The position numbers were made by a program, and so were the translations under genes. Source: Acidovorax sp. CF316 (GTDB lineage: Bacteria > Pseudomonadota > Gammaproteobacteria > Burkholderiales > Burkholderiaceae_C). Taken from it: 64,000 nucleotides of DNA. The first letter of the stretch is position 1. Each line of letters starts with the position of its first letter. Where the stretch lies: the NCBI RefSeq assembly GCF_000276605.1, contig NZ_AKJX01000089.1, forward strand, positions 1-64,000, given 5' to 3'. The notes under the pieces were generated by a model, which worked only from the letters and a program-made list of their open reading frames with translations, made no database searches and was not told the origin of the DNA. Positions 2,060 to 22,328 of this stretch are shown piece by piece.

Positions 2060-2518
2060 TTATTCCCAGCTGCGGATGTCGGCGTCGTCCCCGCTGCCGC
2101 CTTCCTTGCCGTCGGCGCCCAGGGACGAGAGCTCGTAGTCGCTCTTCTCGCCCGGTGCACGGTAGACGTAGCTGTTGCCCCAGGGGTCCTTGTCCACCTT
2201 CTTCTTGAGGTAGGGGCCGCGCCAGCGGGCCGCCTCGGCCGCGTCGGCGGGCTTTTCCGACAGGGCGGCGATGCCCTGCTCGGTGCTCGGGTAGCGCGAC
2301 ATGTCCAGGCGGTAGGTGTCCATGGCGGCGCCCAGCATCTCGATCTGGGTGCGCGCTGCCTTGACCTTGGAGGCGTCGAGCTGGCCGAACAGGCGCGGGC
2401 CGACCAGCGAGGCCAGCAGGCCCAGGATGACCATGACGATCAGCAGTTCGATCAGCGTGAAGCCGCCTGCGCGGCGCAGCGCGGGCTTGCGGGAGGGGAG
2501 CTTGAAGGGCATGTGCAT
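2060..2518 (-). CDS. gspG: Type II secretion major pseudopilin GspG
   Basis: This 152-residue protein has the leader RRAGGFTLIELLIVMVILGL (about residues 15-34), the cleavage site and hydrophobic helix of the major pseudopilin that builds the periplasmic piston-like fibre. Downstream it shows the GspG hallmarks: the helix segment KVKAARTQIEMLGAAMDTYRLD, then RYPSTEQGIAAL, WRGPYLKK and the C-terminal DPWGNSYVYRAPG and SDYELSSLGADG, which in homologues forms a calcium-binding loop. A second in-frame ATG at 2512 is possible. It is separated from gspF by 38 unusually AT-rich bases, the only real gap inside this operon. Confidence 0.92.
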   Translation of the reverse strand: MHMPFKLPSRKPALRRAGGFTLIELLIVMVILGLLASLVGPRLFGQLDASKVKAARTQIEMLGAAMDTYRLDMSRYPSTEQGIAALSEKPADAAEAARWRGPYLKKKVDKDPWGNSYVYRAPGEKSDYELSSLGADGKEGGSGDDADIRSWE

Positions 2519-2556
2519 TGGAAAAAACCTACTTACTTACTACGTCACTTGTTCAT

Positions 2557-3756
2557 TTACAGGGGCATGTCGTTGATCGAGAAGATGGCGGTCAGCATCG
2601 ACACCACGATGGTGCCGATCAGCCCGCCCATCAGCAGGATCATCATGGGCTCGAACAGCGCCACCAGGTTGCGGGTGGCCTTCTGGATGTCCTTCTCATA
2701 CTGGTCGGCCACCTTCACGAGCATGGCATCGAGCGCGCCCGACTCCTCCCCCACCGCGGCCAACTGGCCCAGCAGGCGGGGAAAGAACGGGTCGGCGCGC
2801 ACCGGGCCCGACACGCCTTTGCCTTCCTGCACAGCGCGCACCAGCCGGTCCAGCGCCTTGCGCAAGGGGATGTGCTCGGTCAGTTCGCGCACGATGCGCA
2901 TGCCGGTGAGTATCGGAACCCCGCTGGCCAATAGAGTTCCCCAGGTGCGGCAGACATGGGCCAGCTGGATCTTGAGCAGCAGGGGCCCCAGGATGGGCAT
3001 GCGCAGCAGCAGCAGTTGCCAGCGCTCGCGCCATTTGTCGTCGCGCAGGGCCATCACGAAGCCGGTAAGGGCCACGGCGATCACCCCCAGGATGTACAGG
3101 CCATAGGTCTTCAAGAACTCGCCGGTGCCGATCAGCACGGCCGCCGCTGTGGGCAGCTCCTGGTGCATGTCGGTGAAGATCTGGCCGAACTTGGGCAGCA
3201 CGAACACCGTGAGCCCGAGCAGCGCGCTGACGCCGAAGAAGAACAGCAGCACCGGGTAGATCGACGAGGTGACCAGGAACGAGCGGAACTCGATGCTGCG
3301 CGTGTAGAACTCCACCAGCCGCTGCATCACCACGGGCAGCACGCCGCCTTCCTCGCCGGCGCGCACCATGTTCACGTACAGGCGCGGGAACACCGAGGGG
3401 TGGCGCATGAAGGCATCGCCCAGCGAATTGCCCTTTTCCACGTCCACCACCACGGCCTGCATCACGCCGCGAAAGAAGGGCTGCTCGATGCTGCTCTGGC
3501 AGATGTGCAGTGCCCGGTCCAGCGGCAGGCCGGCGTCGAGCAGGGTCAGCAACTGCTCGGTCATGGCCAGCACATGCTTGATGCCCACGCGCTTGCTGCC
3601 GCCGAGCGAGGCGGTCCAGCCGGTGCCGGACGCAGCCGGCTTCTGCTCGGACGCCAGTGGCAGGTGCTGGGCGGTGTCGGCCGGCGGGGGGCTGATGCCC
3701 GCTTCGGCGGCAATCCCCTGGCTGGCGGCCCCTGAGGTACCCGGCCGCGGCCTCAC
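2557..3756 (-). CDS. gspF: Type II secretion inner-membrane platform protein GspF, atypical N-terminus
   Basis: This 399-residue protein starts at a GTG (3756) that overlaps the gspE stop (GTGA). It has two copies of the T2SSF helical domain (about 60-185 and 260-385) and three strong membrane segments, around residues 160-190, 215-235 and 370-395. GspF forms the inner-membrane platform that couples the GspE ATPase to pseudopilus growth. The usual first about 60 residues of GspF/PilC, with an F-x-Y-x-A-x-D motif, are absent. In their place is a low-complexity stretch rich in Ala, Pro, Gly and Ser up to about residue 53. Other starts inside that stretch cannot be ruled out. Confidence 0.87.
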   Translation of the reverse strand: MRPRPGTSGAASQGIAAEAGISPPPADTAQHLPLASEQKPAASGTGWTASLGGSKRVGIKHVLAMTEQLLTLLDAGLPLDRALHICQSSIEQPFFRGVMQAVVVDVEKGNSLGDAFMRHPSVFPRLYVNMVRAGEEGGVLPVVMQRLVEFYTRSIEFRSFLVTSSIYPVLLFFFGVSALLGLTVFVLPKFGQIFTDMHQELPTAAAVLIGTGEFLKTYGLYILGVIAVALTGFVMALRDDKWRERWQLLLLRMPILGPLLLKIQLAHVCRTWGTLLASGVPILTGMRIVRELTEHIPLRKALDRLVRAVQEGKGVSGPVRADPFFPRLLGQLAAVGEESGALDAMLVKVADQYEKDIQKATRNLVALFEPMMILLMGGLIGTIVVSMLTAIFSINDMPL

Positions 3757-5351
3757 GTCATCTCCTGGCGCGTGACGCGCGCCAGCTCTTCGAGGGTGGT
3801 GATGCCCGCCAGCACCTTGCTGATGCCGTCGGCGCGCATGGTGCGCACCCCTTGCTCGATGGCCTTGCGGCGCACGCCTTCGGCAGGCATCTTCTGGATG
3901 ATGGCTTCCTTGATCGCCGTGGTCATGGGCAGCATCTCGTAGATGCCCGTGCGGCCGATGTAGCCCGACTGGCCGCAGTGGTGGCAGCCCTTGCCGTGGA
4001 ACAGCTCGGTCACCTGGTGGGCCTCGACACCCTCTTCCGCCAGGAACAGCAGGTCGGCCGAGGTGGGCGTGGTGCTTTCGCGGCAGTGCGGGCAGATCAC
4101 GCGCACCAGGCGCTGCGCCACGATGAGTACCACCGAGGAGGCGATCAGGTAGCTCTCCACGCCCATCTCCATGAGCCGGTGGGGCGCGCCGAACGAGTCG
4201 TTGGTGTGCAGGGTCGAGAACACCAGGTGGCCCGTGAGGGCGGACTGGATGGAGATCTCGGCCGTCTCACGGTCACGGATTTCGCCGACCATGATGATGT
4301 CCGGGTCCTGCCGCACGATGGAGCGCAGCGCGCTCGCAAAGGTCAGGTCGATCTGCGACTTGACCTGGATCTGGTTGATGCCGTCGATCTGGTACTCGAC
4401 CGGGTCTTCCACGGTGATGATCTTGTTGCCCGGCAGATTCACCTGGCCCAGCGAGGCGTACAGCGTGCTGGTCTTGCCGCTGCCGGTGGGGCCGGTCACG
4501 AGGATCATGCCGTGCGGCTGCACGATGGCGGCCTCGAGCATGGCCAGCGCCTCGGCGTTCAGGCCGAGTGAGTCCATGCCCATCATGCCGGGGCCCTGGT
4601 CCAGGAGGCGGATGACCATGCTCTCGCCGTACACCGTGGGCACGGTGGAGACGCGCATGTCGATCTGGCGGCCACCGACTTCCATCTTCATGCGGCCGTC
4701 CTGGGGCAGGCGGCGCTCGGCGATGTTCATCTTGGCGCGCAGCTTCAGGTGCGAGATGGACGCCATGTACATGCGCCGCGGGGGCGATTCGGCGTCGAAC
4801 AGCACGCCGTCGATGCGGTAGCGCACGCGGAACTTCTGCTGGCTGACCTCCAGGTGCAGGTCGGATGCCCGGCTTTCCACCGCGCGCAGCAGCAGCGACT
4901 GCACCAGGCGCACCACGGGGGCATCCTCGGCCAGGGCCTTGAGGGTTTCGAGGTCGTCGTCCTGGTTCTCGGAGCCCGATGCGTTCTCGTCGTCGAAGGC
5001 GGCCAGGTTGGCGTTCTCGGGGCGGTAGACCTGGTCCAGGCCGGAGTGGATCCACATGCGCGGCGCCAGGTGCAGGCGCGTGGGCACGGAAAAGAACTGC
5101 TTCAGGGCATCGAGCGCGGCCAGCTGCACGGGCACGCTGGAGGCGATGTGCACCGCTTCGTCCGTGACCGAAAAGGGCAGCAGCGAGTTCGTGCGCAAAA
5201 AGGCTGGCGACAGGCCCTCGATCGGGGACACGTCCTGCAGCGCATGCGTCATGGTGTTGAGCAGCGGCACCTTGAGGTTGCGCGCGAACTGGGCCAGAAG
5301 CTCGGCTTCCTGGTTGCCGGCGTCATCGGTGCCGATGGGGAGACTGCTCAT
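3753..5351 (-). CDS. gspE: Type II secretion ATPase GspE
   Basis: From the ATG at 5351 (MSSLPIGTDD) the protein has 532 residues. It is the cytoplasmic hexameric ATPase that powers pseudopilus assembly. The core shows the Walker A motif GPTGSGKT, the Asp box around ITVEDPVEYQIDG, Walker B in DPDIIMVGEIRDRETAE, the His box TGHLVFSTLHTND, and a tetracysteine zinc module with CPHC and CHHC pairs. An N1E-type domain precedes the core, followed by an acidic linker (DDENASGSENQDDD). The frame is open upstream to 5525 with another ATG at 5390, but those extra residues are Pro/His-rich and not conserved-looking. gspF overlaps its stop. Confidence 0.92.
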   Translation of the reverse strand: MSSLPIGTDDAGNQEAELLAQFARNLKVPLLNTMTHALQDVSPIEGLSPAFLRTNSLLPFSVTDEAVHIASSVPVQLAALDALKQFFSVPTRLHLAPRMWIHSGLDQVYRPENANLAAFDDENASGSENQDDDLETLKALAEDAPVVRLVQSLLLRAVESRASDLHLEVSQQKFRVRYRIDGVLFDAESPPRRMYMASISHLKLRAKMNIAERRLPQDGRMKMEVGGRQIDMRVSTVPTVYGESMVIRLLDQGPGMMGMDSLGLNAEALAMLEAAIVQPHGMILVTGPTGSGKTSTLYASLGQVNLPGNKIITVEDPVEYQIDGINQIQVKSQIDLTFASALRSIVRQDPDIIMVGEIRDRETAEISIQSALTGHLVFSTLHTNDSFGAPHRLMEMGVESYLIASSVVLIVAQRLVRVICPHCRESTTPTSADLLFLAEEGVEAHQVTELFHGKGCHHCGQSGYIGRTGIYEMLPMTTAIKEAIIQKMPAEGVRRKAIEQGVRTMRADGISKVLAGITTLEELARVTRQEMT

Positions 5352-5577
5352 AGTTGCTGTGGGAATGGCCGGTTCGGCACTGGGGGGCATGGGGTGGAAG
5401 GGGTTTGCCAGCGGCCCATGGCCTGCAGGATGGGCGCTGAACGGCCCGTGCGGCCACAGGCCGGGGGTGTTCTGGCACCACCCGGCATTGTAGTTTGTTC
5501 GCCTTTCGCGGGGCACCCCCTGCATGGGTGGGCTTGTGCCGGCGCGCGTAACAAAGATGAGTGCGTGTTAATGGGGG

Positions 5578-7707
5578 TCAGATCGCGAGGGGGTCGACAT
5601 CCACCAGCCAGCGGATCAGTCCCTTGTGGGCCGGATCGCTGCGCGTGGCCTGCAGCACCGGCTGCCAGGCGGCCAGAAAGCGTTGCAGGGCCGTGCGGCT
5701 CTCGCTCTCCAGCAGCATCTGGGCGCGCTCCACATTGGCGATGCGCTGGATGGTCAGCGGCACGGGCGGGTACAGGGTGACATGGTCCACGCCCGGCAGG
5801 CCGTGCTCCCGGGCGGCGGCGCTGGCCGCGGTCAGGAAGGCCTGGGCCACCTCTTGGGTGCGGGCGTCGGCGCGCACCAGGGCCTGGTAGGCGAAGGGGG
5901 GCATGCCTGCCTCCTGGCGCTCCTTGAGCTGCTGGGCCGCGAAGGCGGGGTAGTCGTGTGTGCGCAGCGCCTCGAACACGGCATGCGTGGGGTGGAAACT
6001 CTGCACCCACATCTCGCAGGGGGCGCCGCCCTGGGCCGCCATGTAGGCCGCGTCGCGGCCGGCGCGCCCCCCGGCCTGCATGAGCAGTGCGAACAGCCGC
6101 TCGGCCGAGCGGAAGTCGCTGGAGAACAGCGCGCCGTCGGGCTGCACGGCAGCCACCAGGGTGATGCGGCGAAAGTCGTGGCCCTTGGCGATCATCTGCG
6201 TGCCCACCAGCACGTCCACCTCGCCCGAATGCACCTGGGCCAGCTGGCTTTCGAGCGCGCCCTTGGCCTTGGTGGTGTCGGCATCGATGCGCGCGATGCG
6301 CGCGGGCGAGCCGTCGGGCCGCAGCACCTCGGACAGCAGGCCGGCCAACTGCTCCTCGAGCTGCTCGGTGCCCCGGCCCATGGACAGGATGTCGGGGCTG
6401 CCGCAGGTAGGGCAGTGGCGCGGCACGCGCACGGTGTAGCCGCAGTGGTGGCAGCGCAGGGTGCGGTCGGCCTTGTGGAACACCTGGTGCGCACTGCAGT
6501 GGGGGCAGTCGCTCTTCCAGCCGCAGTCGGCGCAGTGCAGCACGGGGGCATAGCCGCGTCGGTTGAGGAGGACCATGCATTGTTCGCCGCGCTGCACGCG
6601 CTCGGTGATGGCGGCCAGCAGCGGCGCGGTGAACACCGCGCGCTTGGGCTGCTGGTTCATGTCCACCCGGCGCACCCGCGGCAACTGCCCGGCGCCGATG
6701 CGGCTGGGCATGTGCAGGCGCAGGTAGCGGCCGCCCTCGGGGTCCTCGGGCGTGGGCGGGCGGCTGGCGTGCCAGCTTTCCAGCGACGGTGTGGCCGAGC
6801 CCAGCAGCACCTTGGCGCCCTGCTCGCGCCCGCGCCACACGGCCAGGTCGCGCGCCGAGTAGCGGGCGCCCTCCTGCTGCTTGTAGCTGGGGTCGTGTTC
6901 CTCGTCCACCACGATCAGGCGCAGGCCCGGCATGCTGGCGAACACCGCCATGCGCGTGCCCAGCACGATGCGCGCCGCGCCGCTGTGGGCGGCCAGCCAG
7001 CTCTTGAGGCGCTGCGGGTTGGTCATGCCGCTGTGCAACGAGACCACGGCCTGGGCGCCGAAACGCGGCGCGAAGCGGGCGGTGAAGCGCTCTTCGAGCT
7101 GGGGGGTGAGGTTGATCTCGGGCACCATCACCAGGGCCTGGGCGCTCGGATCGGCGTCCAGCACCTCCTGCGCGCAGCGCAGGTAGACCTCGGTCTTGCC
7201 GCTGCCAGTGCTGCCGAACAGCACGAACGGGCCTTTTTCGGCGGCGATCTGCGCGCGCGCGCTTTCCTGCTCGGGTGTCAGGGCCACGCTGGGCAGGGTC
7301 TGGCCGGAGTCGCCGGCGGGCAATGCCGGGCGGCGCAGGCGCCGGGCCAGCTGCTCAGGGCCCAGGTCGCGCAACTGGGGCGGCAGGGCGGCCAGCGCCA
7401 CCTCGCCCAGCGCGCGCTGGTAGTAGCGTGCCGCAAACCCGACCAGGCGGCGCCAGGGCGCGTCGAGCGGCGCCACGCCGGCCAGCACCCCAGCGATGGG
7501 GCGCATGGTCGTGCCTTCGGGCAGCTCGCCGGTGGCCTCTTCCGCGTCCCAGACCACGCCCAGTACCTCGCGGGTGCCAAAGGGCACCCGCACCAGCGTC
7601 CCGGGGGGCAGCGGATCGGGGCTGGCATAGCTCAGCAGATCGCCCACGCCGCTGTGCGAGGGGGCGTGCAGGGCCACATGGACGGTGGTGGTGGATGGAG
7701 GCGGCAA
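5578..7707 (-). CDS. priA: Primosomal protein N' (PriA), replication-restart 3'-5' helicase
   Basis: This 709-residue protein reloads the replisome at stalled forks. It has the N-terminal 3'-DNA-binding domain (about 1-110), a DEAD-like helicase with GSTGSGKTEVYL (about 165-176), the DEEHD box, LLGSATPS (motif III) and a C-terminal helicase lobe with QMIAKGHDF. Between the lobes are eight Cys arranged as zinc-binding pairs (CADC, CPHC, CHHC, CPTC), as in PriA. The start used is TTG at 7707: no in-frame ATG or GTG lies immediately upstream, and the residues just after it (TVHVALHAP) match the PriA N-terminal strand. It borders the DnaA-box region, an apt neighbour for a replication gene. Confidence 0.93.
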   Translation of the reverse strand: MPPPSTTTVHVALHAPSHSGVGDLLSYASPDPLPPGTLVRVPFGTREVLGVVWDAEEATGELPEGTTMRPIAGVLAGVAPLDAPWRRLVGFAARYYQRALGEVALAALPPQLRDLGPEQLARRLRRPALPAGDSGQTLPSVALTPEQESARAQIAAEKGPFVLFGSTGSGKTEVYLRCAQEVLDADPSAQALVMVPEINLTPQLEERFTARFAPRFGAQAVVSLHSGMTNPQRLKSWLAAHSGAARIVLGTRMAVFASMPGLRLIVVDEEHDPSYKQQEGARYSARDLAVWRGREQGAKVLLGSATPSLESWHASRPPTPEDPEGGRYLRLHMPSRIGAGQLPRVRRVDMNQQPKRAVFTAPLLAAITERVQRGEQCMVLLNRRGYAPVLHCADCGWKSDCPHCSAHQVFHKADRTLRCHHCGYTVRVPRHCPTCGSPDILSMGRGTEQLEEQLAGLLSEVLRPDGSPARIARIDADTTKAKGALESQLAQVHSGEVDVLVGTQMIAKGHDFRRITLVAAVQPDGALFSSDFRSAERLFALLMQAGGRAGRDAAYMAAQGGAPCEMWVQSFHPTHAVFEALRTHDYPAFAAQQLKERQEAGMPPFAYQALVRADARTQEVAQAFLTAASAAAREHGLPGVDHVTLYPPVPLTIQRIANVERAQMLLESESRTALQRFLAAWQPVLQATRSDPAHKGLIRWLVDVDPLAI

Positions 7708-7866
7708 GGTCGGTGGTTCAGGGGCAACCGGGAATCGTACGCCAATCCTCCTGGGGGCTCGGGCTGTCCGCGGTGTGGGGAGGTTGCGCGTGCTACTTCA
7801 TGTGCTGTGGCGGTGTCAGCGCTAAGTCGCTGATCGTGCTGCTTTTTTCAAGTCATCCCACAAATC

Positions 7867-7875
7867 TGTGGATAA
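7867..7875 (-). other. DnaA box (perfect)
   Basis: TGTGGATAA on the + strand, TTATCCACA on the - strand, the strongest DnaA-binding form. It is followed by CTTTGTTGACATCC, shared with the copy at 8566. Confidence 0.75.
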
Positions 7876-8055
7876 CTTTGTTGACATCCTGTCTTCACCG
7901 TGGCCCAGGCCGCATGGATACTGGGCTGGAACAAACTGCCTGTAAATCCAGCAGAGAGAAAAAATCCATATGAATCAATCATCTGAAGATTTTTGGAGGG
8001 CTTTTTTGTGTTAATCGCCGGCGGGTGCATTTTTGCTGCGCCGCATCACGTTTTG

Positions 8056-8064
8056 TGTGCATAA
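8056..8064 (-). other. DnaA box (consensus TTATNCACA)
   Basis: TGTGCATAA on the + strand fits the DnaA consensus TTATNCACA read on the - strand. Its counterpart in the second module is at 8754. Confidence 0.6.
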
Positions 8065-8202
8065 GTCGAGCCTGCCCGGTTCGTCAAGGGGAGAATGGCC
8101 ACCATTTCTGTGCTAGCCGATCGAGTCGGTATGCAGTGTTTTCTGTGATGTCGCCCGCAAGTGCTTGATTTTGCAAGGCTTTTGCGAGAAGTTCAGAATT
8201 TC

Positions 8203-8211
8203 TGTGGATAA
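8203..8211 (-). other. DnaA box (perfect)
   Basis: TGTGGATAA followed by CTTTGTTGATATCCCC, shared with the copy at 8901. Confidence 0.75.
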
Positions 8212-8565
8212 CTTTGTTGATATCCCCTGCGCGCAGCCCGCCAGCCCTTGAAAAACCGTGCTTCCGGTAGGTTGCCCGCCAAAAGTGCAATCGAAGGATA
8301 TCCATATGAATCAACCACTTGCGTCGCTGCCAAAATAAAGTGGCGCCCCAGAAACAGCGCGATTGAATTTTTCAAGGATGCGCTGCCAGTGTGCACAACT
8401 CCGGCTATTTCCCGCCTGCTGGAGGGCTTCGAGGGGCTCTCTCGATGCCCTCCGACGAGATGGCTGGACTTTTTTTTTGCCAGCGTACCCGGGTGCTGGC
8501 GCACGGGTGCGATGGATCGCCTGGCCGAAGATTCCGCCCCGCCCTGCCAAGTCATCCCGGAAATC

Positions 8566-8574
8566 TGTGGATAA
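8566..8574 (-). other. DnaA box (perfect)
   Basis: TGTGGATAA followed by CTTTGTTGACATCC; second-module counterpart of the box at 7867, 699 bases away. Confidence 0.75.
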
Positions 8575-8753
8575 CTTTGTTGACATCCTGTCTCCAGTGC
8601 GCCGCAGGCCGCATGGATGCTGGGCTGCGACAGAATGCCTGTCAAAACGGCAGGGTCAAAAAATCCATATGAATCAATCATCTGAGGATTTTTGCTGCAC
8701 CTTCTTGTGCTAGTGCCGCAGCATTGGCTTTTGCTGCGCCGCATTACCTTTTG

Positions 8754-8762
8754 TGTGCATAA
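8754..8762 (-). other. DnaA box (consensus TTATNCACA)
   Basis: TGTGCATAA; counterpart of the site at 8056, 698 bases away. Confidence 0.6.
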
Positions 8763-8900
8763 GTGCAGTTCGCGCGGTTCGTCAAGAGGACATTGCCCGC
8801 CATTCCCGTGCCCGCGGTGTAGGACGATGTCCACTGATTCTTGCAGTTCACGCCGCAAGTGCTTGATCTGTCACAGTTTTTTCATGAAATTCAGAATTTC

Positions 8901-8909
8901 TGTGGATAA
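8901..8909 (-). other. DnaA box (perfect)
   Basis: TGTGGATAA followed by CTTTGTTGATATCCCC; counterpart of the box at 8203, 698 bases away. Confidence 0.75.
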
Positions 8910-9030
8910 CTTTGTTGATATCCCCTGTGTTCTGGCTGCCAGCCCTTGAAAAACCGTGCTTCTGGTAGATTGCCCAGCAAAAGAGCAGCGCATGAATGCC
9001 TATACAAATCAATGGCTTGCATGCGGTCCG

Positions 9031-9058
9031 AAAAAAAGGGCCGTCCAATGGACGGCCC
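9031..9058 (-). terminator. Rho-independent terminator of hemE
   Basis: On the - strand a perfect 9-bp stem (GGGCCGTCC / GGACGGCCC) with a 3-base loop is followed directly by seven T residues. It lies about 70 bases after the hemE stop and would insulate the DnaA-box region from hemE transcription. Confidence 0.92.
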
Positions 9059-9129
9059 GATAGATTTTCTTGCAGATGCACCACTGCTGTGCACAACCCA
9101 GGCTATCCCGCAACCCGGGAGAGCGCTTT

Positions 9130-10245
9130 TCAACCCGCGCTGCGCTGATTGCGTGAATGGCTGTGCACGGTTTCCACCAGCGCCGCCACATGCTCGGGTG
9201 GCGTGAACTGGCTGATGCCGTGGCCCAGGTTGAAGATATGCGTGGGGCCGGTGGTGCTGCGGTCGGTGTGCGGCGTGCCGAAGCTGTCCAGCACCCGGCG
9301 CGCCTGGGCTGCGATCTGCTCGGGCGGCGCAAACAGCACGTTCGGGTCGATATTGCCCTGCAGGGCCTTGCCCGGGCCGCCCACGGCGCCACCCACCAGG
9401 GCCCGGGCGCGCGCCAGGTTCGCGGTCCAGTCCAGGCCCAGCACCTCGCAGTCCAGGGGCTTCATGTCTTCCAGCCACAGGGCGCCGCCCTTGGTGAAGA
9501 CCAGGCGCGGTACATCGGTGCCGTCCACGCCGGTGCGCTTGAGCTGGGCCAGCACCCGCGCCGTGTAGGCCAGGCTGAACTCCTGGAAGGCCCCGTCGGC
9601 CAGCACGCCGCCCCAGCTGTCGAAAATCATCACCGCCTGGGCGCCCGCGTCGATCTGGGCGTTCAGGTAGGCGGCCACGGCGTCGGCATTGGTGGCCAGG
9701 ATGCGGTGCATCAGGTCCGGGCGCGCATACATCAGGCTCTTGACCAGGCGGTAGTCGTCACTGCCCTTGCCTTCCACCATGTAGCAGGCCAGCGTCCAGG
9801 GGCTGCCCGAAAAGCCGATCAGCGGCACCCGGCCGGTCAATGCCTTTCGAATGCTGGTCACGGCGTCGAACACATAGCGCAGCTTGTCCATGTCGGGCAC
9901 GGCCAGTTCGGCCACCGCGGCCTCGTCGCGTACCACCTTGGCAAAGCGCGGGCCCTCGCCCTCGGCGAACGACAGGCCCAGGCCCATGGCATCGGGCACC
10001 GTGAGGATGTCGCTGAACAGAATGGCCGCATCGAGCGGAAAGCGCTCCAACGGCTGCAGCGTCACTTCGGTCGCGTAATCCACGTTGGTGGCCAGGCCCA
10101 TGAAGCTGCCGGCCTGGGCGCGCGTGGCCTTGTACTCGGGCAGGTAGCGCCCTGCCTGGCGCATCAGCCACAGGGGCGTGTAGTCGGTGGCCTGGCGACG
10201 GCAGGCGCGCAGGAAGGTGTCGTTGGAAAGGGGGGCGAAGCTCAT
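9130..10245 (-). CDS. hemE: Uroporphyrinogen III decarboxylase
   Basis: This 371-residue cytoplasmic enzyme decarboxylates the four acetate side chains of uroporphyrinogen III to give coproporphyrinogen III in haem synthesis. It shows the family signature [15 protein letters not shown] near residues 24-38 with the conserved Arg pair, the [12 protein letters not shown] segment containing the substrate-contacting Asp, and the second signature [16 protein letters not shown]. Length is typical. The ATG at 10245 ([14 protein letters not shown]) fits the family start; the open frame upstream to 10374 is not used. It ends in a strong terminator and lies next to the DnaA-box region. Confidence 0.96.
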
Positions 10246-10354
10246 GCCCCGATTGTCGCAGGGCCCGGAAACTGGACGGAATCGCCAGAGCAGATGGGGT
10301 TGGGTGTGCTGCCTGCGCAGATGTCGCGGAGGCCTGCAACAAAGGCCTTCATGG

Positions 10355-10453
10355 GCAGGGCCGCGGCCCTGCAAGCGCCACCGTGGATCCGGCTTTGCCG
10401 GTCCACCGGAGGCGTCCCCCTCAGGGGGAAGACGCGCAGCGGCTCAGGGGGAG
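10355..10453. repeat. Cluster of GC-rich palindromic hairpins (REP-like intergenic element)
   Basis: Between hemE and the MFS gene lie three consecutive perfect or near-perfect stem-loops. One is GCAGGGCC/GGCCCTGC at 10355-10372. One at 10383-10406 has GTGGA/TCCAC outside CCGGC/GCCGG with TTT as loop. One at 10412-10435 has GCGTC/GACGC around CCCCT/AGGGG. Such hairpin trains are typical of REP-like intergenic repeats in this family (family knowledge, not checked). They follow the 3' end of the MFS gene and could protect its mRNA end. No T-run follows. Confidence 0.6.
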
Positions 10454-15126: not shown

Positions 15127-16797
15127 CTAGACAGTTGGCGCAGCCACATGTTCGCGCCGCTGCACGATCACGAAGCGGTCGGCCACGAAGGCCAGGTTGG
15201 TGTAGCTGGCGTTGGCGGCCGGGTTGCCGCCCGTGGCGTGGTAGTCCGAGAACGACGCCGATTGGTTCACGAACACACCCTGCGTGAGGTTGATGGACAG
15301 GGCCACGCGCGTGCGCCGGCCCAGGGCGATGGCGGCGTCGATGTAGGCGCGGTCGGTGGAGTACACGCCCAGCGTCAGCGCGCCATGCTCGCGCAGCGTG
15401 GCCTCGGCCACCTGCAGGCTGGCGGCGCCCGAGTCGGTGGCCACCAGGTAGGACACGGGGCCGAAGCATTCCTGGCCGTAGATGGCGCTGTCGGCCTGCT
15501 CCAGCGCCACGATCACCGGCGTGTGGATCTGCGCGTTCGCGAACTCGGGGTGGGGCAGGGCACGCGAGGCCAGCACCAGGCGGCCCTGGCCGCTGGCCTG
15601 CTGCATGCGGGCCACGGTCTCGGGCGAGCCCACGGCGCCCAGCACCGAGGTGGCCACGCGCGGGTTCGAGGCCAGCTCGGTCACGGCGGCGGCCAGGTCC
15701 GCACCCACCTGCTCGAAGCTCTTGTGCCCTTCGTCGGTGGCGATGCCGCTACGCGGCACCAGGAGGTTCTGCGTGGTCGTGCACATCTGGCCGCTGTACA
15801 GCGACAGCGTGAACGCCAGGTTGCGCAGCAGGGCCGCGTACTGGTCGGTGGATTCGATGATCACCGTGTTCACGCCGGCCATCTCGGCATACACGCGCGC
15901 CTGGCGGGCGTTGTCGATGAGCCAGCGGCCGAACTGGTTGCTGCCCGTGAAGTCGATGCTGGCCACCGCGCTGTGCGTGGCCAGGGCCTGGGTGTCTTCG
16001 GCACGGGGGCTCAGTGCCAGGGTCACGGTGTTCGGGTCCAGCCCCTGCTCGGCCAGCACCTCGCGCAGGATGTTCACCGAGATCGCGGCCGGCAGCACGG
16101 CATTGGGGTGCGGCTTGACGATGACCGGGTTGCCCGTGGCCAGCGCGGCGAACAGGCCGGGGTAGGTGTTCCAGGTGGGGAAGGTGGCGCAGCCCACCAC
16201 CAGCGCGACGCCGCGGCCTACGATCTCGTAATGCTTTTGCATCACCAGCGACGGGTTCTTGCCCTGGGGCTTGTCCCACAGCGCCTGGCCTGGCACGTCG
16301 GCCATGGCCTTCCAGGCGTAGGCGATGGCTTCGAGTGCACGGTCCTGCGCATGCGGGCCGCCGGCCTGGAAGGCCATCATCGGGCCCTGGCCGGTGGTCA
16401 GCATCACGGCGTGCGCGATCTCGTGGCTGCGGCGGTGTATGCGCACCAGCGCCTCCAGCAGCACGCCCGTGCGGCCCTGCGTGCCCAGTGCCTGCCACGC
16501 GGGTTCGGCCGCCTGGGCCGCATCCAATAGGGCATGCACGTCGCAATCGGGGTAGCGCACGTCCAGCGCCACGCCGTAGGGCGAGCGCTCGGTGGCCAGG
16601 CGGCCTTGCTCGCCGGGCTGCTGCAGCGCAAAGTCCTTGCCCAGCAGGGCATTCACGGCCGCCTGGCCGTCGGCCTGGCCGGTCTCGCCATAGACCTTGG
16701 GCGAGGGCGATTCGGGGAAGGGCGTCCAGTGGCCGCGGGTGGCCAGGGCGGCAAGGGCTCCCTCCAGGAGGGCACGGTGGGTATCGAACAAGGGCAT
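15127..16797 (-). CDS. paaN: Phenylacetic acid degradation protein PaaN (aldehyde dehydrogenase)
   Basis: This 556-residue protein belongs to the aldehyde dehydrogenase superfamily in the PaaN branch. It acts after ring epoxidation, on the opened seven-membered ring product of phenylacetyl-CoA. The NAD(P) and catalytic regions are visible: VALVVGCATFPTWNTYPGLFAALATGNPVIVKPHP, the IDFTGSNQFG loop, and the nucleophile in SGQMCTTTQNLLVP. Unlike E. coli PaaZ it has no C-terminal MaoC hydratase domain. The ATG at 16797 has a GGAGAC site; the frame extends upstream to 16938 through the operator, so that start is rejected. It is divergent from paaG. Confidence 0.9.
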   Translation of the reverse strand: MPLFDTHRALLEGALAALATRGHWTPFPESPSPKVYGETGQADGQAAVNALLGKDFALQQPGEQGRLATERSPYGVALDVRYPDCDVHALLDAAQAAEPAWQALGTQGRTGVLLEALVRIHRRSHEIAHAVMLTTGQGPMMAFQAGGPHAQDRALEAIAYAWKAMADVPGQALWDKPQGKNPSLVMQKHYEIVGRGVALVVGCATFPTWNTYPGLFAALATGNPVIVKPHPNAVLPAAISVNILREVLAEQGLDPNTVTLALSPRAEDTQALATHSAVASIDFTGSNQFGRWLIDNARQARVYAEMAGVNTVIIESTDQYAALLRNLAFTLSLYSGQMCTTTQNLLVPRSGIATDEGHKSFEQVGADLAAAVTELASNPRVATSVLGAVGSPETVARMQQASGQGRLVLASRALPHPEFANAQIHTPVIVALEQADSAIYGQECFGPVSYLVATDSGAASLQVAEATLREHGALTLGVYSTDRAYIDAAIALGRRTRVALSINLTQGVFVNQSASFSDYHATGGNPAANASYTNLAFVADRFVIVQRREHVAAPTV

Positions 16798-16855
16798 CAA
16801 ATTGTCTCCGCTAGGGTTTGCCCTGATGGGTTTGACTTGCATCAGGATTCGGGAA

Positions 16856-16884
16856 AGTTTATTCTCTACCGAACGGTCGGTCAA
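16856..16884 (-). promoter_or_regulatory. Probable paaN promoter
   Basis: On the - strand TTGACC (16884-16879) and TAAACT (16861-16856) are separated by exactly 17 bases, close to the sigma-70 pattern. The PaaR-type palindrome overlaps the -35 box and spacer, where a bound repressor would block RNA polymerase. Confidence 0.5.
16868..16881. promoter_or_regulatory. Candidate PaaR operator
   Basis: ACCGAACGGTCGGT carries the inverted pair ACCGA/TCGGT around a 4-base centre. It is in the shared promoter region of paaN and paaG, 59 bases before the paaG start and 70 before paaN. TetR-type PaaR operators in proteobacteria are known to be ACCGNNCGGT-like; the match is by eye. Confidence 0.6.
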
Positions 16885-16940
16885 TAATGTTTGCGATCGC
16901 TCAACACCAGATTTCCCCACCTTGATAGGCAGGAGCATCC

Positions 16941-17744
16941 ATGTCTGAATCCCTGGTCCTCGTGACGCAGTCGGGCGCCGTGCAAACGCTGGCGCTCAAC
17001 CGGCCCGCCGCGCTCAACAGCTTCACGGCCGAGCTGCATGCCCAGCTGCTGGCGGCGCTGGAGGCGGCCGCAGCCAATGCAGAGGTGCGCTGCGTGGTGC
17101 TCACGGGCTCGGGCCGGGCCTTCTGCGCGGGGCAGGACCTGGCCGACCCGGCCGTGGCGCCCGACCTCACGCCGGGCGCCGCGCCCAAGGACCTGGGCGA
17201 GGTGATCGACAAGCTGTACGGCCCCCTGTGCCTGCGCATCCGCAGCATGCCCATCCCCGTGGTGGCCGCCGTCAACGGTGTGGCCGCCGGCGCGGGCGCC
17301 AACCTGGCGCTGGGTTGTGACCTGGTGCTGGCTGCGCGCTCGGCCAGCTTCATCCAGGCCTTCACCAAGATCGGCCTGGTCCCCGATACCGGCGGCACCT
17401 GGCTGCTGCCGCGCCTGGTCGGCCGCGCCCAGGCCCTGGGCCTGGCGCTGCTGGGCGACAAGCTGCCAGCGGCCGATGCCGAGCGCCTGGGCCTGATCTG
17501 GCGCTGCGTGGACGATGCGGCCCTGCAGGACGAAGCCCAGGCCCTGGCCCAGCGCCTGGCCGCCATGCCCGTGAAGGCGCTGGTGGCCACGCGCAATGCG
17601 ATGGATGCCTCCGCGCAGATGGACTACGGCCAGGCCCTGGCCCGTGAGGCGGCCGTGCAGCGCACGCTGGGCGCCTCGGCCGACTACCGCGAGGGCGTCG
17701 AGGCCTTCATTGGCAAGCGCGCCCCCGTCTTCAAAGACCGCTGA
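16941..17744 (+). CDS. paaG: PaaG, 1,2-epoxyphenylacetyl-CoA isomerase
   Basis: This 267-residue crotonase-superfamily enzyme converts ring-1,2-epoxyphenylacetyl-CoA to the oxepin-CoA, the step after the PaaABCE oxygenase. Visible features are the oxyanion-hole region GSGRAFCAGQDLADP, the second oxyanion loop AAVNGVAAGAGANLALGCDLVLA and FTKIGLVPDTGGTWLLPRLVG, where the conserved Asp of the PaaG subgroup lies. It is the first gene of the + strand paa operon, with the PaaR-type operator just upstream, and paaI follows after 12 bases. The name rests on family signature plus the surrounding paa genes. Confidence 0.93.
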   Translation: MSESLVLVTQSGAVQTLALNRPAALNSFTAELHAQLLAALEAAAANAEVRCVVLTGSGRAFCAGQDLADPAVAPDLTPGAAPKDLGEVIDKLYGPLCLRIRSMPIPVVAAVNGVAAGAGANLALGCDLVLAARSASFIQAFTKIGLVPDTGGTWLLPRLVGRAQALGLALLGDKLPAADAERLGLIWRCVDDAALQDEAQALAQRLAAMPVKALVATRNAMDASAQMDYGQALAREAAVQRTLGASADYREGVEAFIGKRAPVFKDR

Positions 17745-17756
17745 TCGAGTAGCCCC

Positions 17757-18221
17757 ATGGATTCCTCTACCACCGCCATGGACCCCCAGGCCATCGCCGA
17801 GCATGTGCGCGCCGGCATGCTCGCCAACGACCGCGCCACGCAGGGCCTGGGCATCGCCATCACCGCCATCGCACCAGGGCAGGCGACGCTCGAGATGACC
17901 GTGCGTGCCGACATGCTCAACGGCTTTGCCATCTGCCACGGCGGCTTCATCACCACGCTGGCCGACTCGGCGTTCGCCTTCTCGTGCAATGCGCGCAACG
18001 AGATGACCGTGGCCTCGGGCCTGTCCATCGACTTCCTGGCACCCGCACGCGAGGGCGACCGCCTCACGGCCGTGGCCACCGAGGTCTCGCTGGCCGGCCG
18101 CACCGGCGTGTACGACGTGAACGTGCACAACCAGCGCGGCGAGGCCATCGCCGTGTTCCGCGGCCGCTCGTACTGCATGAAGGGCAAGCCCACCGTGCCG
18201 CTGGACGCTGCCGCCCGCTGA
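17757..18221 (+). CDS. paaI: PaaI, hydroxyphenylacetyl-CoA thioesterase
   Basis: This 154-residue hotdog-fold thioesterase hydrolyses dead-end aryl-CoA intermediates and frees CoA during phenylacetate breakdown. The motif GFAICHGGFITTLADSAFAF contains the His-Gly-Gly segment and catalytic Asp of the PaaI family, and VASGLSIDFLAPAREGD matches the substrate-binding strand. A later Met at 17778 (MDPQAIAEHV) is an alternative start. It lies between paaG and paaK in the operon with short gaps. Confidence 0.92.
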   Translation: MDSSTTAMDPQAIAEHVRAGMLANDRATQGLGIAITAIAPGQATLEMTVRADMLNGFAICHGGFITTLADSAFAFSCNARNEMTVASGLSIDFLAPAREGDRLTAVATEVSLAGRTGVYDVNVHNQRGEAIAVFRGRSYCMKGKPTVPLDAAAR

Positions 18222-18252
18222 CCCCCCTACCCAGAACCCACAGGAGACATCC

Positions 18253-19560
18253 ATGGCCGTGCGCCAACCTGCCCCAGGCGACCTGGAGCCCATCGAAACC
18301 GCCAGCCGCGACGAAGTCCAGTCCCTGCAGCTGCAGCGCCTGCGCTGGACGCTGCAGCACGCCTACGACAACGTGCCGCACTACCAACGCGCCTTCGATG
18401 CCAAGGGCGTGCACCCGTCGGACCTCAAGCAGCTGTCTGACCTCTCCAAGTTCCCCTTCACGGTCAAGAAGGACCTGCGCGACAACTACCCCTTCGGCAT
18501 GTTCGCCGTGCCGCGCGAAAAGGTGGCCCGTATCCACGCCTCCTCGGGCACCACGGGCAAGCCCACGGTGGTGGGCTACACATTGAAGGACATCGATACC
18601 TGGGCCGACCTGGTGGCACGCTCCATCCGCGCGGCCGGCGGGCGCGCGGGCGACCTGATCCACATCGCCTATGGCTACGGCCTGTTCACGGGCGGCCTGG
18701 GCGCGCACTACGGCGCCGAGCGCGCGGGCTGCACGGTGATCCCCATGTCGGGCGGCCAGACCGAAAAGCAGGTGCAGCTGATCCGCGACTTCGGGCCCAG
18801 CATCATCATGGTCACGCCCTCGTACATGCAGGTCATCAACGAGGAGTTCGTGCGCCAGGGGCTGGACCCGCGCGAGAGCTCGCTCAAGGTCGGCATCTTC
18901 GGCGCCGAGCCCTGGACCGAGGCCATGCGCCGCGAGATCGAGACCAAGGCCGGCATCGACGCGGTGGACATCTACGGCCTGTCCGAAGTGATGGGTCCGG
19001 GCGTGGCCAGCGAGTGCATCGAGAGCAAGGACGGCCCCGTGGTCTGGGAAGACCACTTCTACCCCGAGATCATCGACCCCGAAACGGGCGAGGTGCTGCC
19101 CGACGGCCAGGAGGGCGAACTCGTCTTCACCTCGCTGAGCAAGGAGGCGCTGCCAATGATCCGCTACCGCACGCGCGACCTCACGCGCCTCTTGCCGCCC
19201 ACCTCGCGCGCCTTCCGCCGCATGGGCAAGATCGTGGGCCGCTCGGACGACATGCTCATCATCCGCGGCGTGAACGTGTTCCCCACGCAGATCGAAGAGA
19301 TCGTGCTGCAGAACGAAAAACTCTCGGGCCAGTACCAGATCCTCGTGGCGCGCGACGGCAACCTCGACCAGGTGACCGTGCGCTGCGAGCTGCAGCCAGG
19401 CGTGGCCGATGGCGAGCGCCCGGACCTCACCGGTTGGGTGCAGCAGCGCATCAAGACCCTGGTGGGCATCACCTGCCAGGTCGAGGTGCTGGCCACCGAT
19501 TCCATCGAACGCACGCTGGTGGGCAAGGCCCGCCGCGTGATCGACCAGCGCGCGCGCTGA
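18253..19560 (+). CDS. paaK: PaaK, phenylacetate-CoA ligase
   Basis: This 435-residue AMP-forming ligase activates phenylacetate to phenylacetyl-CoA, the entry step of the pathway. The P-loop-like adenylate motif [15 protein letters not shown] lies near residues 95-110. The core motif [17 protein letters not shown] and the C-terminal hinge and lid [21 protein letters not shown] are intact, and length is normal for the family. A purine-rich AGGAGAC site precedes the ATG at 18253. It is 31 bases after paaI and 29 before paaA. Confidence 0.95.
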
Positions 19561-19589
19561 AGCAGCCCCCCGAACGAAAGGACACCACC

Positions 19590-20597
19590 ATGTACACCCA
19601 GGCCATGGACACCATGGGCAAGGAAGGCGGCGACGCCAAGGCCCTGCGCAGCGCCGAGGAGATGCAGCGCCAGGAGGCCTTCGATGCGCGCATCGACGCG
19701 GGCGAATTCATCGAGGCCAAGGACTGGATGCCCGACCACTACCGCAAGACCCTGCTGCGCCAGATCAGCCAGCATGCGCACTCGGAGATCGTCGGCATGC
19801 TGCCCGAGGGCAACTGGATATCGCGCGCCCCCACGCTCAAGCGCAAGGCCATCCTGCTGGCCAAGGTGCAGGACGAGGGCGGCCATGGCCTGTACCTGTA
19901 CGCCGCGGCCGAGACCCTCGGGACCTCGCGCGACCAGATGCTGGATGCCCTGCACACCGGGCGCGCCAAGTACAGCTCCATCTTCAACTACCCCACGCTG
20001 ACCTGGGCCGACATGGGCACCATCGGCTGGCTGGTCGATGGCGCCGCCATCATGAACCAGGTGCCGATCTGCCGCTGCTCCTACGCGCCGTATGCACGGG
20101 CCATGGTGCGCATCTGCCGGGAAGAGAGCTTCCACCAGCGCCAGGGCTACGACGCGCTGCTCACCATGATGCAGCAGGGCACCGATGCCCAGCGTGCCAT
20201 GGTGCAGGACGCGGTGAACCGCTGGTGGTGGCCCTCCATCATGATGTTCGGCCCGCCCGACGACCAGTCGCCCAACTCCGCGCAGTCCATGCGCTGGGGC
20301 ATCAAGCGCATCTCCAACGACACCCTGCGCCAGAAGTTCATCGACGCCACGGTGGAGCAGGCCCGCGTGCTCGGCGTGACCCTGCCCGACCCCGACCTGC
20401 AATGGAACGAGGAGCGCCAGGCGCACGACTACGGCGCCATCGACTGGAGCGAGTTCTGGCGCGTGATCGGCGGCGACGGCCCCTGCAACGAAGAACGCCT
20501 GGGCGCGCGCGTCAAGGCCTGGGACGACGGTGCCTGGGTGCGCGAAGCCGCCCTGGCCCATGCCGCCAAGCACGCCCCGGTGCGTGCTGCCGCCTGA
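19590..20597 (+). CDS. paaA: PaaA, phenylacetyl-CoA epoxidase catalytic subunit
   Basis: This 335-residue di-iron subunit of the multicomponent oxygenase inserts one oxygen atom into the ring of phenylacetyl-CoA. The ligand-bearing helices are visible as [17 protein letters not shown] and [13 protein letters not shown], each holding an E-x-x-H pair, and the [13 protein letters not shown] segment is characteristic. The ATG at 19590 follows a GAAAGGACA ribosome site. The open frame extends back to 19014 inside paaK but that portion is a shadow. paaB follows after 25 bases. Confidence 0.96.
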
Positions 20598-20622
20598 TTT
20601 CACCGAGATCCGAGATTTCCCC

Positions 20623-20952
20623 ATGACGACCCCATCCTCTCCCTCCACCCCCGCCGCCGATCCCGCGATGGCCACCGAATGGCCGCTGTGGGAAGTCTTC
20701 GTGCGCAGCAAGGCCGGCCTGGACCACAAGCACTGCGGCAGCCTGCATGCGGCCGACCCGCGCATGGCCATCCAGCTGGCGCGCGACGTCTACACCCGGC
20801 GCCAGGAAGGCACCAGCGTCTGGGTCGTGCGCTCCGACCAGATCGTGGCCAGCGACCCCGGCGAGAAATCCATGTACTTCGACCCGGCGCAGGACAAGGT
20901 CTACCGCCACCCCACCTTCTACGTGCTGCCCCAGTCCGTGGACCACATGTGA
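20623..20952 (+). CDS. paaB: PaaB, phenylacetyl-CoA epoxidase structural subunit
   Basis: This 109-residue protein bridges PaaA-PaaC heterodimers in the epoxidase complex. The conserved core is WPLWEVFVRSKAGLDHKHCG, then RDVYTRRQEGTSVWVV and the C-terminal DKVYRHPTFY. The first about 18 residues are a low-complexity Thr/Pro/Ala stretch, and an inner Met (MATEWPLWEV) could be the functional start. Its stop overlaps a possible GTG start of paaC. Confidence 0.94.
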   Translation: MTTPSSPSTPAADPAMATEWPLWEVFVRSKAGLDHKHCGSLHAADPRMAIQLARDVYTRRQEGTSVWVVRSDQIVASDPGEKSMYFDPAQDKVYRHPTFYVLPQSVDHM

Positions 20953-20963
20953 GCGCCACTGCC

Positions 20964-21740
20964 ATGCAAGCCACCAGCATCCACATCAGCCAGGACCCGG
21001 GCGTGCAGTACCTGCTGCGCATCGGCGATACCTGCCTCGTCCTGGCCCAGCGCCTGTCCGAATGGTGCGGCCACGGCCCCGTGCTCGAAGAGGACATCGC
21101 CCTGTCCAACATGGCGCTCGACCTCGTGGGCCAGGCGCGCGCCGTGCTCACCCGGGCCGGCCAGATTGAAGGCCGCGGCCACGACGAGGACCAACTGGCC
21201 TTCCTGCGCGACGAGCGCGACTATGTCAACGTGACCCTGGTGGAGCTGCCGCGCGGTGACTTCGCCTTCACCATGGTGCGCAATGCCATGGTGGCCACTC
21301 TCTTCAAGCTGCTGTGGGAGCGCCTGGCCAGCTCCAGCGACACGGAGCTGGCCGCCATTGCCGGCAAGGCCGTCAAGGAGGCGCGCTACCACCAGCAGCA
21401 TGCGGCCGACTGGGTCGTGCGCCTGGGCGACGGCACGGCCGAATCGCGCCGCCGCACCGAAGCGGCCCTCAAGGCCCTGTGGCGCTACACGCCCGAGCTG
21501 TTCGTGGTCGATGCGGTGGACGAATCCGCCCACGCCACGGGTCTGGGCCCGCGCTGGGCCGACCTCAAGGACGCCTGGACCGGCGAGATGGCACAGATCC
21601 TGGCCGCTGCCAGCCTGGCGACGCCCCAGGAGTCGGCGTTTCGCAGCACCGGCAAGCAGGGCGTGCACAGCGAGCACATGGGCTACATCCTGACCGAGAT
21701 GCAGTACCTGCAGCGCAGCTTTCCCGGGGGCGTGTGGTGA
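20964..21740 (+). CDS. paaC: PaaC, phenylacetyl-CoA epoxidase structural subunit
   Basis: This 258-residue helical ferritin-like protein pairs with PaaA but lacks catalytic iron. Conserved stretches are LAQRLSEWCGHGPVLEEDIALSNMALDLVGQAR, DERDYVNVTLVELPRGDFAFT and GKQGVHSEHMGYIL. I use the ATG at 20964; an in-frame GTG at 20949 overlaps the paaB stop and is an alternative. Its stop overlaps the paaD start by one base, indicating translational coupling. Confidence 0.94.
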   Translation: MQATSIHISQDPGVQYLLRIGDTCLVLAQRLSEWCGHGPVLEEDIALSNMALDLVGQARAVLTRAGQIEGRGHDEDQLAFLRDERDYVNVTLVELPRGDFAFTMVRNAMVATLFKLLWERLASSSDTELAAIAGKAVKEARYHQQHAADWVVRLGDGTAESRRRTEAALKALWRYTPELFVVDAVDESAHATGLGPRWADLKDAWTGEMAQILAAASLATPQESAFRSTGKQGVHSEHMGYILTEMQYLQRSFPGGVW

Positions 21741-22294
21741 TGGTGGCCGAAGCCATCGACCGCCCGGACGCAGCGGACACCTTCGCCGACGCACGCATTG
21801 CGCGCGCGTGGGAGGTGCTCGACAGCGTGCCCGATCCCGAGGTGCCCGCGGTCTCCGTGTGCGACCTGGGCATCGTGCGCGCCGTGCGCCTGGCGGGCGA
21901 TGGCCTGGAGATCGTGCTCACCCCCACCTATTCGGGCTGCCCGGCCACCGAGGTGATCGAACACGACGTGCTCGCCGCCATCGTGGCGGCCGGCCTCGGC
22001 CCGGCCCACGCCACGCTGCAGCGCGCACCGGCCTGGACCACCGACTGGATCACCGAACGCGGCCGCGCCCGCCTGCTGGCCTACGGCATCGCGCCGCCGG
22101 GCCCGCTGCCGCCGGGTACCGAGGTGCCGCTGCGCTTCATGCCGCGCGCCAACGCGGCTGCCCCGGCGCTGGCCTGCCCGCGCTGCGGCAGCCTGCAGAC
22201 CGAGCGGCTCTCGGCCTTCGGCTCCACGGCTTGCAAGGCGCTGTACCGCTGCATGGCCTGCCGCGAGCCCTTCGAGCACTTCAAGCCCTTGTGA
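21740..22294 (+). CDS. paaD: PaaD, MIP18/DUF59-family iron-sulfur maturation protein
   Basis: This 184-residue protein is needed for phenylacetyl-CoA epoxidase activity and is thought to help load the iron-sulfur cluster of PaaE. The N-terminal DUF59 domain shows DSVPDPEVPAVSVCDLGIV and TPTYSGCPATEVIE with the conserved Cys. The C-terminal zinc-ribbon-like part has CPRCGS and CMAC pairs. The ATG at 21740 overlaps the paaC stop; a GTG at 21737 is also in frame. paaE follows after 34 bases. Confidence 0.93.
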   Translation: MVAEAIDRPDAADTFADARIARAWEVLDSVPDPEVPAVSVCDLGIVRAVRLAGDGLEIVLTPTYSGCPATEVIEHDVLAAIVAAGLGPAHATLQRAPAWTTDWITERGRARLLAYGIAPPGPLPPGTEVPLRFMPRANAAAPALACPRCGSLQTERLSAFGSTACKALYRCMACREPFEHFKPL

Positions 22295-22328
22295 AGCACC
22301 CTTCTTCGCCCCCACCCAAGACACCGAC

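Follow-up and report, generated by a model that had tools for sequence, protein, structure and literature searches.

A tandem array of DnaA boxes and IHF sites between priA and hemE of Acidovorax sp. CF316, a candidate datA-like locus for the control of DnaA

The window, that is, the whole stretch of 64,000 nucleotides analysed here, belongs to contig C89 (NZ_AKJX01000089.1) of the draft genome of Acidovorax sp. CF316, which is in 315 contigs. The gap between its priA and hemE genes, located upstream of priA and past the 3' end of hemE, has a G+C content of 53% as compared to 69% for the window. Two modules repeating at an offset of 698-699 bp occupy this gap, and both they and the six DnaA boxes ascribed to them in an initial annotation of the sequence (four perfect and two consensus boxes in one orientation) were recovered, all boxes lying on the minus strand. 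What the initial annotation had overlooked is that each module is itself a tandem pair, with units 335-336 bp apart, so that there are four units in all. Every unit follows the same plan: a perfect DnaA box TTATCCACA (box II) at position 0, a weak box (box III) at +12, an IHF consensus at +106 and a distal box at +187 to +189, which is the consensus box TTATGCACA in units 1 and 3 and TTGTGCACA, with one mismatch, in units 2 and 4. The latter two units carry, in addition, an extra IHF or IHF-like site at -45. The features are as follows.

5578-7707, minus strand: priA, flanking gene (NCBIfam TIGR00595, E 2.8e-148)
7849-8408, no strand: module 1 (units 1 and 2), repeat families D1-D3
7853-7861, plus strand: unit 1, degenerate stretch where the opposing DARS box I would lie, 4 mismatches
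7867-7875, minus strand: unit 1 box II, TTATCCACA
7879-7887, minus strand: unit 1 weak box III, 3 mismatches, 12 bp on
7973-7985, plus strand: unit 1 IHF consensus, 1 mismatch, +106
8056-8064, minus strand: unit 1 distal box TTATGCACA, +189
8158-8170, minus strand: unit 2 upstream IHF consensus, perfect, -45
8203-8211, minus strand: unit 2 box II, TTATCCACA
8215-8223, minus strand: unit 2 weak box III, 2 mismatches
8309-8321, plus strand: unit 2 IHF consensus, perfect, +106
8390-8398, minus strand: unit 2 distal box TTGTGCACA, 1 mismatch, +187
8548-9106, no strand: module 2 (units 3 and 4), aligned blocks 74-83% identical to module 1
8566-8574, minus strand: unit 3 box II, TTATCCACA
8578-8586, minus strand: unit 3 weak box III, 3 mismatches
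8672-8684, plus strand: unit 3 IHF consensus, 1 mismatch, +106
8754-8762, minus strand: unit 3 distal box TTATGCACA, +188
8856-8868, minus strand: unit 4 upstream IHF-like site, 1 mismatch, -45
8901-8909, minus strand: unit 4 box II, TTATCCACA
8913-8921, minus strand: unit 4 weak box III, 2 mismatches
9007-9019, plus strand: unit 4 IHF consensus, perfect, +106
9088-9096, minus strand: unit 4 distal box TTGTGCACA, 1 mismatch, +187
9130-10374, minus strand: hemE, flanking gene (NCBIfam TIGR01464, E 6e-117)

Farther out, the window carries type II secretion genes (gspE, gspF and a gspG-like gene, 2060-5525) and genes for phenylacetate degradation (paaN, a paaG-like gene, paaI, paaK and paaE, 15127-23414).

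The two modules are 83%, 82% and 74% identical over their three aligned blocks and, when limits of the motif stretches were set by hand, 127 of 139 positions were identical within these stretches and 290 of 432 in the remainder. An assembly artefact is ruled out by the differences of 17-26% between the aligned blocks and is also countered by Acidovorax sp. A1169 (L137), in which four boxes stand in the same order. The 7.09-Mb genome contains 14 perfect boxes, 4 of them at the hemE-priA locus, and a Poisson estimate of the probability of finding at least 4 perfect boxes in 1043 bp is about 7e-13. The others are found in an array on contig C202 (three boxes), as a pair on C283 and at five single sites; C112 has one of these single sites, upstream of dnaA, and C207 another. 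Scattering of the same repeats over many intergenic sites, which the initial annotation had named as evidence against its reading, was not observed: a 19-mer, with up to 2 mismatches allowed, occurs at four places here and at one elsewhere in the genome, in a sister element on C207, and a scattered repeat family is thereby ruled out. A known structured RNA is likewise ruled out, as an Rfam scan of 7400-9400 gave no family match at E up to 0.1. A gene for ihfA is present in the genome (122.1 bits as compared to a cut-off of 120.25).

The sister element on C207 (L292:4654-4770; C207:31153-31269) lies between an exbB-like gene and xseA and has the core spacing of E. coli DARS. It is one of 20 non-hemE loci, a mixed set picked by box II and the IHF site, so that only boxes I and III are free tests in them; an opposing box at -14 averages 1.65 mismatches and a box at +12 averages 1.85, in both cases the best of the scanned offsets. 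Among the seven non-hemE loci for which a neighbour was scanned, xseA stands beside four (L281, L285, L291, L292) and was not found at L277, L279 and L287, for each of which one neighbour was scanned. The array on C202 (L126:3133-3580) has a different layout, with three TTATCCACA boxes at a spacing of 137-138 bp and an IHF consensus 36 bp after each, and is located between a DUF427 gene and a DUF938 gene. Similar arrays occur in G010 and G033, and three boxes were seen in G014.

Conservation was analyzed in a set of relatives selected by HemE and thus independently of the motif, namely the best 80 of at least 595 relatives, which are therefore near relatives (Acidovorax, Paracidovorax, Comamonas, Simplicispira, Variovorax, Hydrogenophaga, Limnohabitans and others). 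Nine of the 80 hemE loci lack an adjacent priA and were dropped (L145, L149, L162, L168, L185, L190, L202, L204, L206). TTATCCACA is present in 69 of the 71 hemE-priA gaps of these best 80 relatives, and the two box-less gaps, L163 and L166, are only 46 and 15 bp long. One unit was found in 45 of the 69 loci and two or more in 24. Among the 96 units of these near relatives, a perfect IHF consensus at +103 to +107 is present in 65 (on the plus strand exactly at 105 or 106 in 59), a consensus box at +178 to +200 in 77, and an upstream IHF site at -46 to -40 in 63. Letter shuffles, carried out for two of these features, gave 0 both for the IHF site at +103 to +107 and for the distal box. Most distal boxes fall at 185-189 or at 197-199 (75 places among the offsets listed), two ranges that differ by about one helical turn, and all three flanking sites occur together in only 45 of the 69 loci. 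In the 45 single units, the region from +40 to +61 from box II has the consensus AAGCCTTGAAAATCAAGGCTT, an inverted repeat, and TTGCC at about +69 is found in 7/45 single, 10/24 first and 12/24 last units.

Within the genus, an exact 18-mer consisting of box II and the next bases was detected in 33 of 36 genomes with 1 to 6 copies each (27 genomes have two copies, 1 has a single copy and 5 have four to six), the exceptions being G002, G018 and G030, and in none of 24 genomes of other families. The 29 modules of the genus alignment were picked by this 18-mer, so its constancy there proves nothing. A stricter pattern of box and extension was found in only 29 of 299 genomes of the family. At the order level, at least 140 of 399 genomes have a box followed by a gap of 95-98 bp and an IHF site, and at the class level 98 of 369 have box II with TGTG at +12 and an IHF site; in the rows shown of the order and class searches, the count for the reversed control patterns was always 0. 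The class-level pattern does not fit the window units, in which +12 reads TGTT, and within this genome it is matched only by the C207 copy. Among the order-search matches listed, the position between hemE and priA was found for 8 of 15 loci retrieved and for 7 of 20 further hand-picked stretches. At the class level, G964 has five and G801 four separate elements of box II, box III and IHF site.

In the genus, priA adjoins 28 of 30 loci. Three genomes, G021, G033 and G035, have an additional module on the far side of hemE and of the gene that follows it (an MFS gene in G021); these extra modules (L127:6968-7400 in G021, L128:2316-2973 and L129:2285-2718) look as if copied to the neighbouring gap. 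Together with the copy-number variants, the extra modules suggest a dosage element.

The probable origin is a different locus of the genome. On C283, DnaA-trio motifs (CTACTACTAC) lie beside A+T-rich stretches in two tandem copies (L125:6755-7523; C283:14754-15522), and PMC8287927 reports that the core of origin unwinding consists of such trios next to a DnaA box. When the genus pattern was searched with up to 1 mismatch, these two copies were the only matches in the genome, with no match on C89, and of 19 genomes examined 17 contained the pattern, the other two being G002 (two contigs), which also lacks the exact 18-mer, and G255. All genus genomes examined except G002 (10 of 11) have two trio copies, 477-874 bp apart. 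In nine closed or nearly closed genus genomes, each consisting of one or two contigs, the trio locus is 23-86 kb away from dnaA and is separated from the hemE-priA locus by 0.47-0.69 Mb, corresponding to 0.124 ± 0.010 of the chromosome (range 0.108-0.140). The C283 locus is probably the true oriC of the genus and, because two trio copies are found in 10 of the 11 genomes, this origin is itself probably tandemly duplicated. In Acidovorax sp. CF316, dnaA, whose position the initial annotation had proposed to compare with the hemE-priA locus, is on C112 and thus separate from the window contig.

The skew analyses cover two relatives, G014 and G033, in place of the fragmented genome of Acidovorax sp. 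CF316. For G014, the most densely sampled relative, origin and terminus were fitted to 60 samples of 20 kb, and the best-fit origin was at 0.10 Mb by summed GC and TA skew and at 0.20 Mb by GC skew alone. The trio locus at 0.087 Mb scored 0.03% (sum) and 0.8% (GC alone) below the best, whereas the hemE-priA locus at 0.69 Mb scored 12% and 9% below it (summed scores: 392,304 for the bin of the trio locus, 392,417 for the best and 346,415 for the hemE-priA locus). This fit is coarse, as any origin in the arc that begins at 4.88 Mb, crosses 0 and ends at 0.44 Mb is within 5% of the best sum, and up to 0.52 Mb on GC alone; 0.68 Mb is outside this range. In G033 (20 samples), nine consecutive samples that extend to both sides of the locus, from 0.70 to 1.42 Mb, share a negative GC skew, and toward dnaA and the trio locus the skew is near zero and later weakly positive, so that the switch is blurred. 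The initial annotation had proposed a GC-skew minimum at the locus as a check; in these two relatives no sign switch was found at hemE-priA, and the skew of G014 switches near the trio locus. An E. coli-type dif pattern, searched as a marker of the terminus, gave no match in 10 genomes, and counts of GGGCAGGG polarity were too sparse per sample for use.

We consider it quite likely that the hemE-priA locus is not an origin and serves in the control of DnaA in one way or another, as a member of the datA/DARS class. Most likely, it would be a conserved landing pad for DnaA and IHF which tunes the timing of initiation and which is present here in four tandem copies. To the narrower reading, that the locus is datA-like and would lower DnaA activity, we give slightly less than an even chance, both the effect and its sign being predicted. 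DnaA would bind to the strong box II, to the weak box III 12 bp on and to the distal box about 188 bp away, and IHF bound between the boxes would bend the DNA and so bring DnaA molecules of the same direction together. After the locus has been copied, at about 0.6 Mb from oriC in relatives, ATP-DnaA would be held and inactivated, and four tandem units would make this effect stronger. A datA-like outcome would be expected over a DARS-like one because the boxes all point in one direction and the opposing box I is eroded. The label "datA-like" is used instead of datA, since the chief datA feature accessible from sequence is present and the activity is predicted from this likeness.

A DARS, which would promote the release of ADP from DnaA and favour initiation, would also be a site for the control of DnaA, and the units share several features with it. 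The cores of E. coli DARS1 and DARS2 have boxes at -14, 0 and +12, and in E. coli DARS2 IHF-like sites were located at +79 and +95, with the 3 bp between them that PMC4245941 describes for IBS1 and IBS2. The 12-bp spacing of boxes II and III recurs in the window units, where the putative box III has 2-3 mismatches; in the HemE-based relatives it has a mean of 2.16-3.04 mismatches, and in each of the five sets no reverse offset scores better than +12. The IHF site at +106, found in 4/4 window units with 0-1 mismatch, is 11 bp, or one helical turn, from the DARS2 IHF-like site at +95. A box I with up to 2 mismatches is kept in 8 of 16 hemE-priA units of other families, a distal box (up to 1 mismatch) is found in 15 of these 16, the C207 sister element has a recognizable core, and the -14/0/+12 core is carried by the non-hemE sister loci. 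However, in all four window units the place of the opposing box I, 14 bp before box II, has 4-5 mismatches to TTATCCACA. PMC8682772 attributes the function of DARS to boxes I and II, the opposing orientation of which it describes as the basis of the head-to-head interaction. The distal box of the window units also points opposite to the TTATCCACA box at +197 of E. coli DARS2. In the near relatives, a box I with up to 2 mismatches was found in 9/45 single, 1/24 first and 2/24 last units, and among forward offsets -14 ranks first in single units (mean 3.76), is tied in last units (4.21) and comes third in first units (5.38). Box I is thus eroded in the HemE-based relatives, and what remains reads as the datA-like part. 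The locus is not filed as a DARS, one tested DARS feature having failed, and that it acts as one is unlikely.

As to the occurrence of DARS elsewhere, conservation of the DARS2 core is described for gamma-proteobacteria related to E. coli (PMC4245941), that of DARS for beta or gamma species close to E. coli (PMC5742627), and DARS-like sequences for many proteobacteria (PMC10380432). The papers differ on the extent of DARS conservation, and DARS-like sequences outside enterics are not new as such, because papers already report them in other proteobacteria. Among open-licence papers, no report of an element such as the one described here was found for this order.

A passive sink, which titrates DnaA and leaves its bound nucleotide unchanged, would be a third form of DnaA control, and titration of DnaA is argued for E. 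coli in PMC12371093. The many strong boxes and the variable copy number would suit such a sink, but the spacing of IHF sites and boxes fixed in relatives would be unneeded for it, and we regard it as improbable. The proposal of the initial annotation that the locus is a DnaA-titration site comes near to the best reading, although the fixed IHF sites point more to a built nucleoprotein device than to a plain sink. A shade less probable still is a regulatory region from which DnaA and IHF control transcription of priA. Such a role is in line with the adjacency of priA in the genus loci mentioned above and in all 69 HemE-based loci with a unit, and with the location of the C207 sister element beside xseA, another gene of DNA metabolism. 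Yet boxes and IHF sites extending over 560-1250 bp exceed, in our judgement, the usual needs of a promoter, and the extra modules of G021, G033 and G035 lie beyond hemE and the next gene, which in G021 encodes an MFS protein. That the locus is the chromosome origin with a duplicated core, as the initial annotation proposed in view of the perfect boxes clustered in an A+T-richer gap beside hemE and of the hemE-linked origins of Caulobacter, is very improbable and is rejected in view of the trio locus elsewhere and the skew data. The duplication itself is real, and what is duplicated is an element which is mostly single in the related genera sampled. The probable origin of the genus lies at the trio locus. 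Where perfect DnaA boxes cluster beside hemE, they can thus be wrongly taken for oriC.

Returning to the datA-like reading, its history might be sketched as follows. An old DARS-like activator may have lost the opposing box I and so become a datA-like inactivator in Comamonadaceae, which was then multiplied in Acidovorax, while the sister element beside xseA kept the DARS core; this scenario is possible, if doubtful. If it is true, one locus switched the sign of its effect on replication initiation. The control of DnaA by non-coding chromosomal sites has been worked out mainly in E. coli, and a precisely spaced DnaA-IHF element, which the sampled relatives keep at hemE-priA and which is akin to elements in much of the class, would offer non-enteric sites for tests of the datA/DARS principle, in which the natural variants in copy number could serve as a dosage series.

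Clusters of DnaA boxes away from oriC, said to repress untimely initiation, are described for Bacillus subtilis and Streptomyces in PMC5742627 and resemble the locus by description; they differ from the window units, which are built round fixed IHF sites. The probable oriC on C283 shares with the hemE-priA locus the arrangement of DnaA boxes in a tandemly duplicated intergenic region and differs from it by the trio motifs next to A+T-rich stretches. Among the closest known systems is also E. coli datA, in which two consensus boxes of the same direction lie 162 bp from each other and enclose an IHF-like site whose relative orientation is that seen in the units. PMC5742627 and PMC10380432 ascribe the function of datA to boxes of one direction and an IHF site, the spacing of which matters. 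Two same-direction DnaA boxes of predicted high affinity flank an IHF site in 4/4 window units when 1 mismatch is allowed, which for units 1 and 3 concerns the IHF site and for units 2 and 4 the distal box. Read on the minus strand, box, IHF site (minus) and box of unit 3 have the order and orientation of those of E. coli datA and stand at 0/+78/+188, as compared to 0/+65/+162 in datA, the unit spacing being about 26 bp longer. PMC5742627 reports for datA a third box in this direction, of low affinity; in the window units the putative weak box at +12 has 2-3 mismatches. E. coli datA is located at 0.101 of the chromosome from oriC and the hemE-priA locus of relatives at about 0.1, a distance that may be mere synteny; among E. 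coli strains, datA and the DARSs are reported to keep their relative distance from oriC (PMC4585315). The two loci differ in gene context, which is hemE-priA in the window and glyVXY-queG in the case of datA, and the window locus is further distinguished from datA by a weak box 12 bp from the strong one, by the upstream IHF sites of units 2 and 4, and by its tandem copies.
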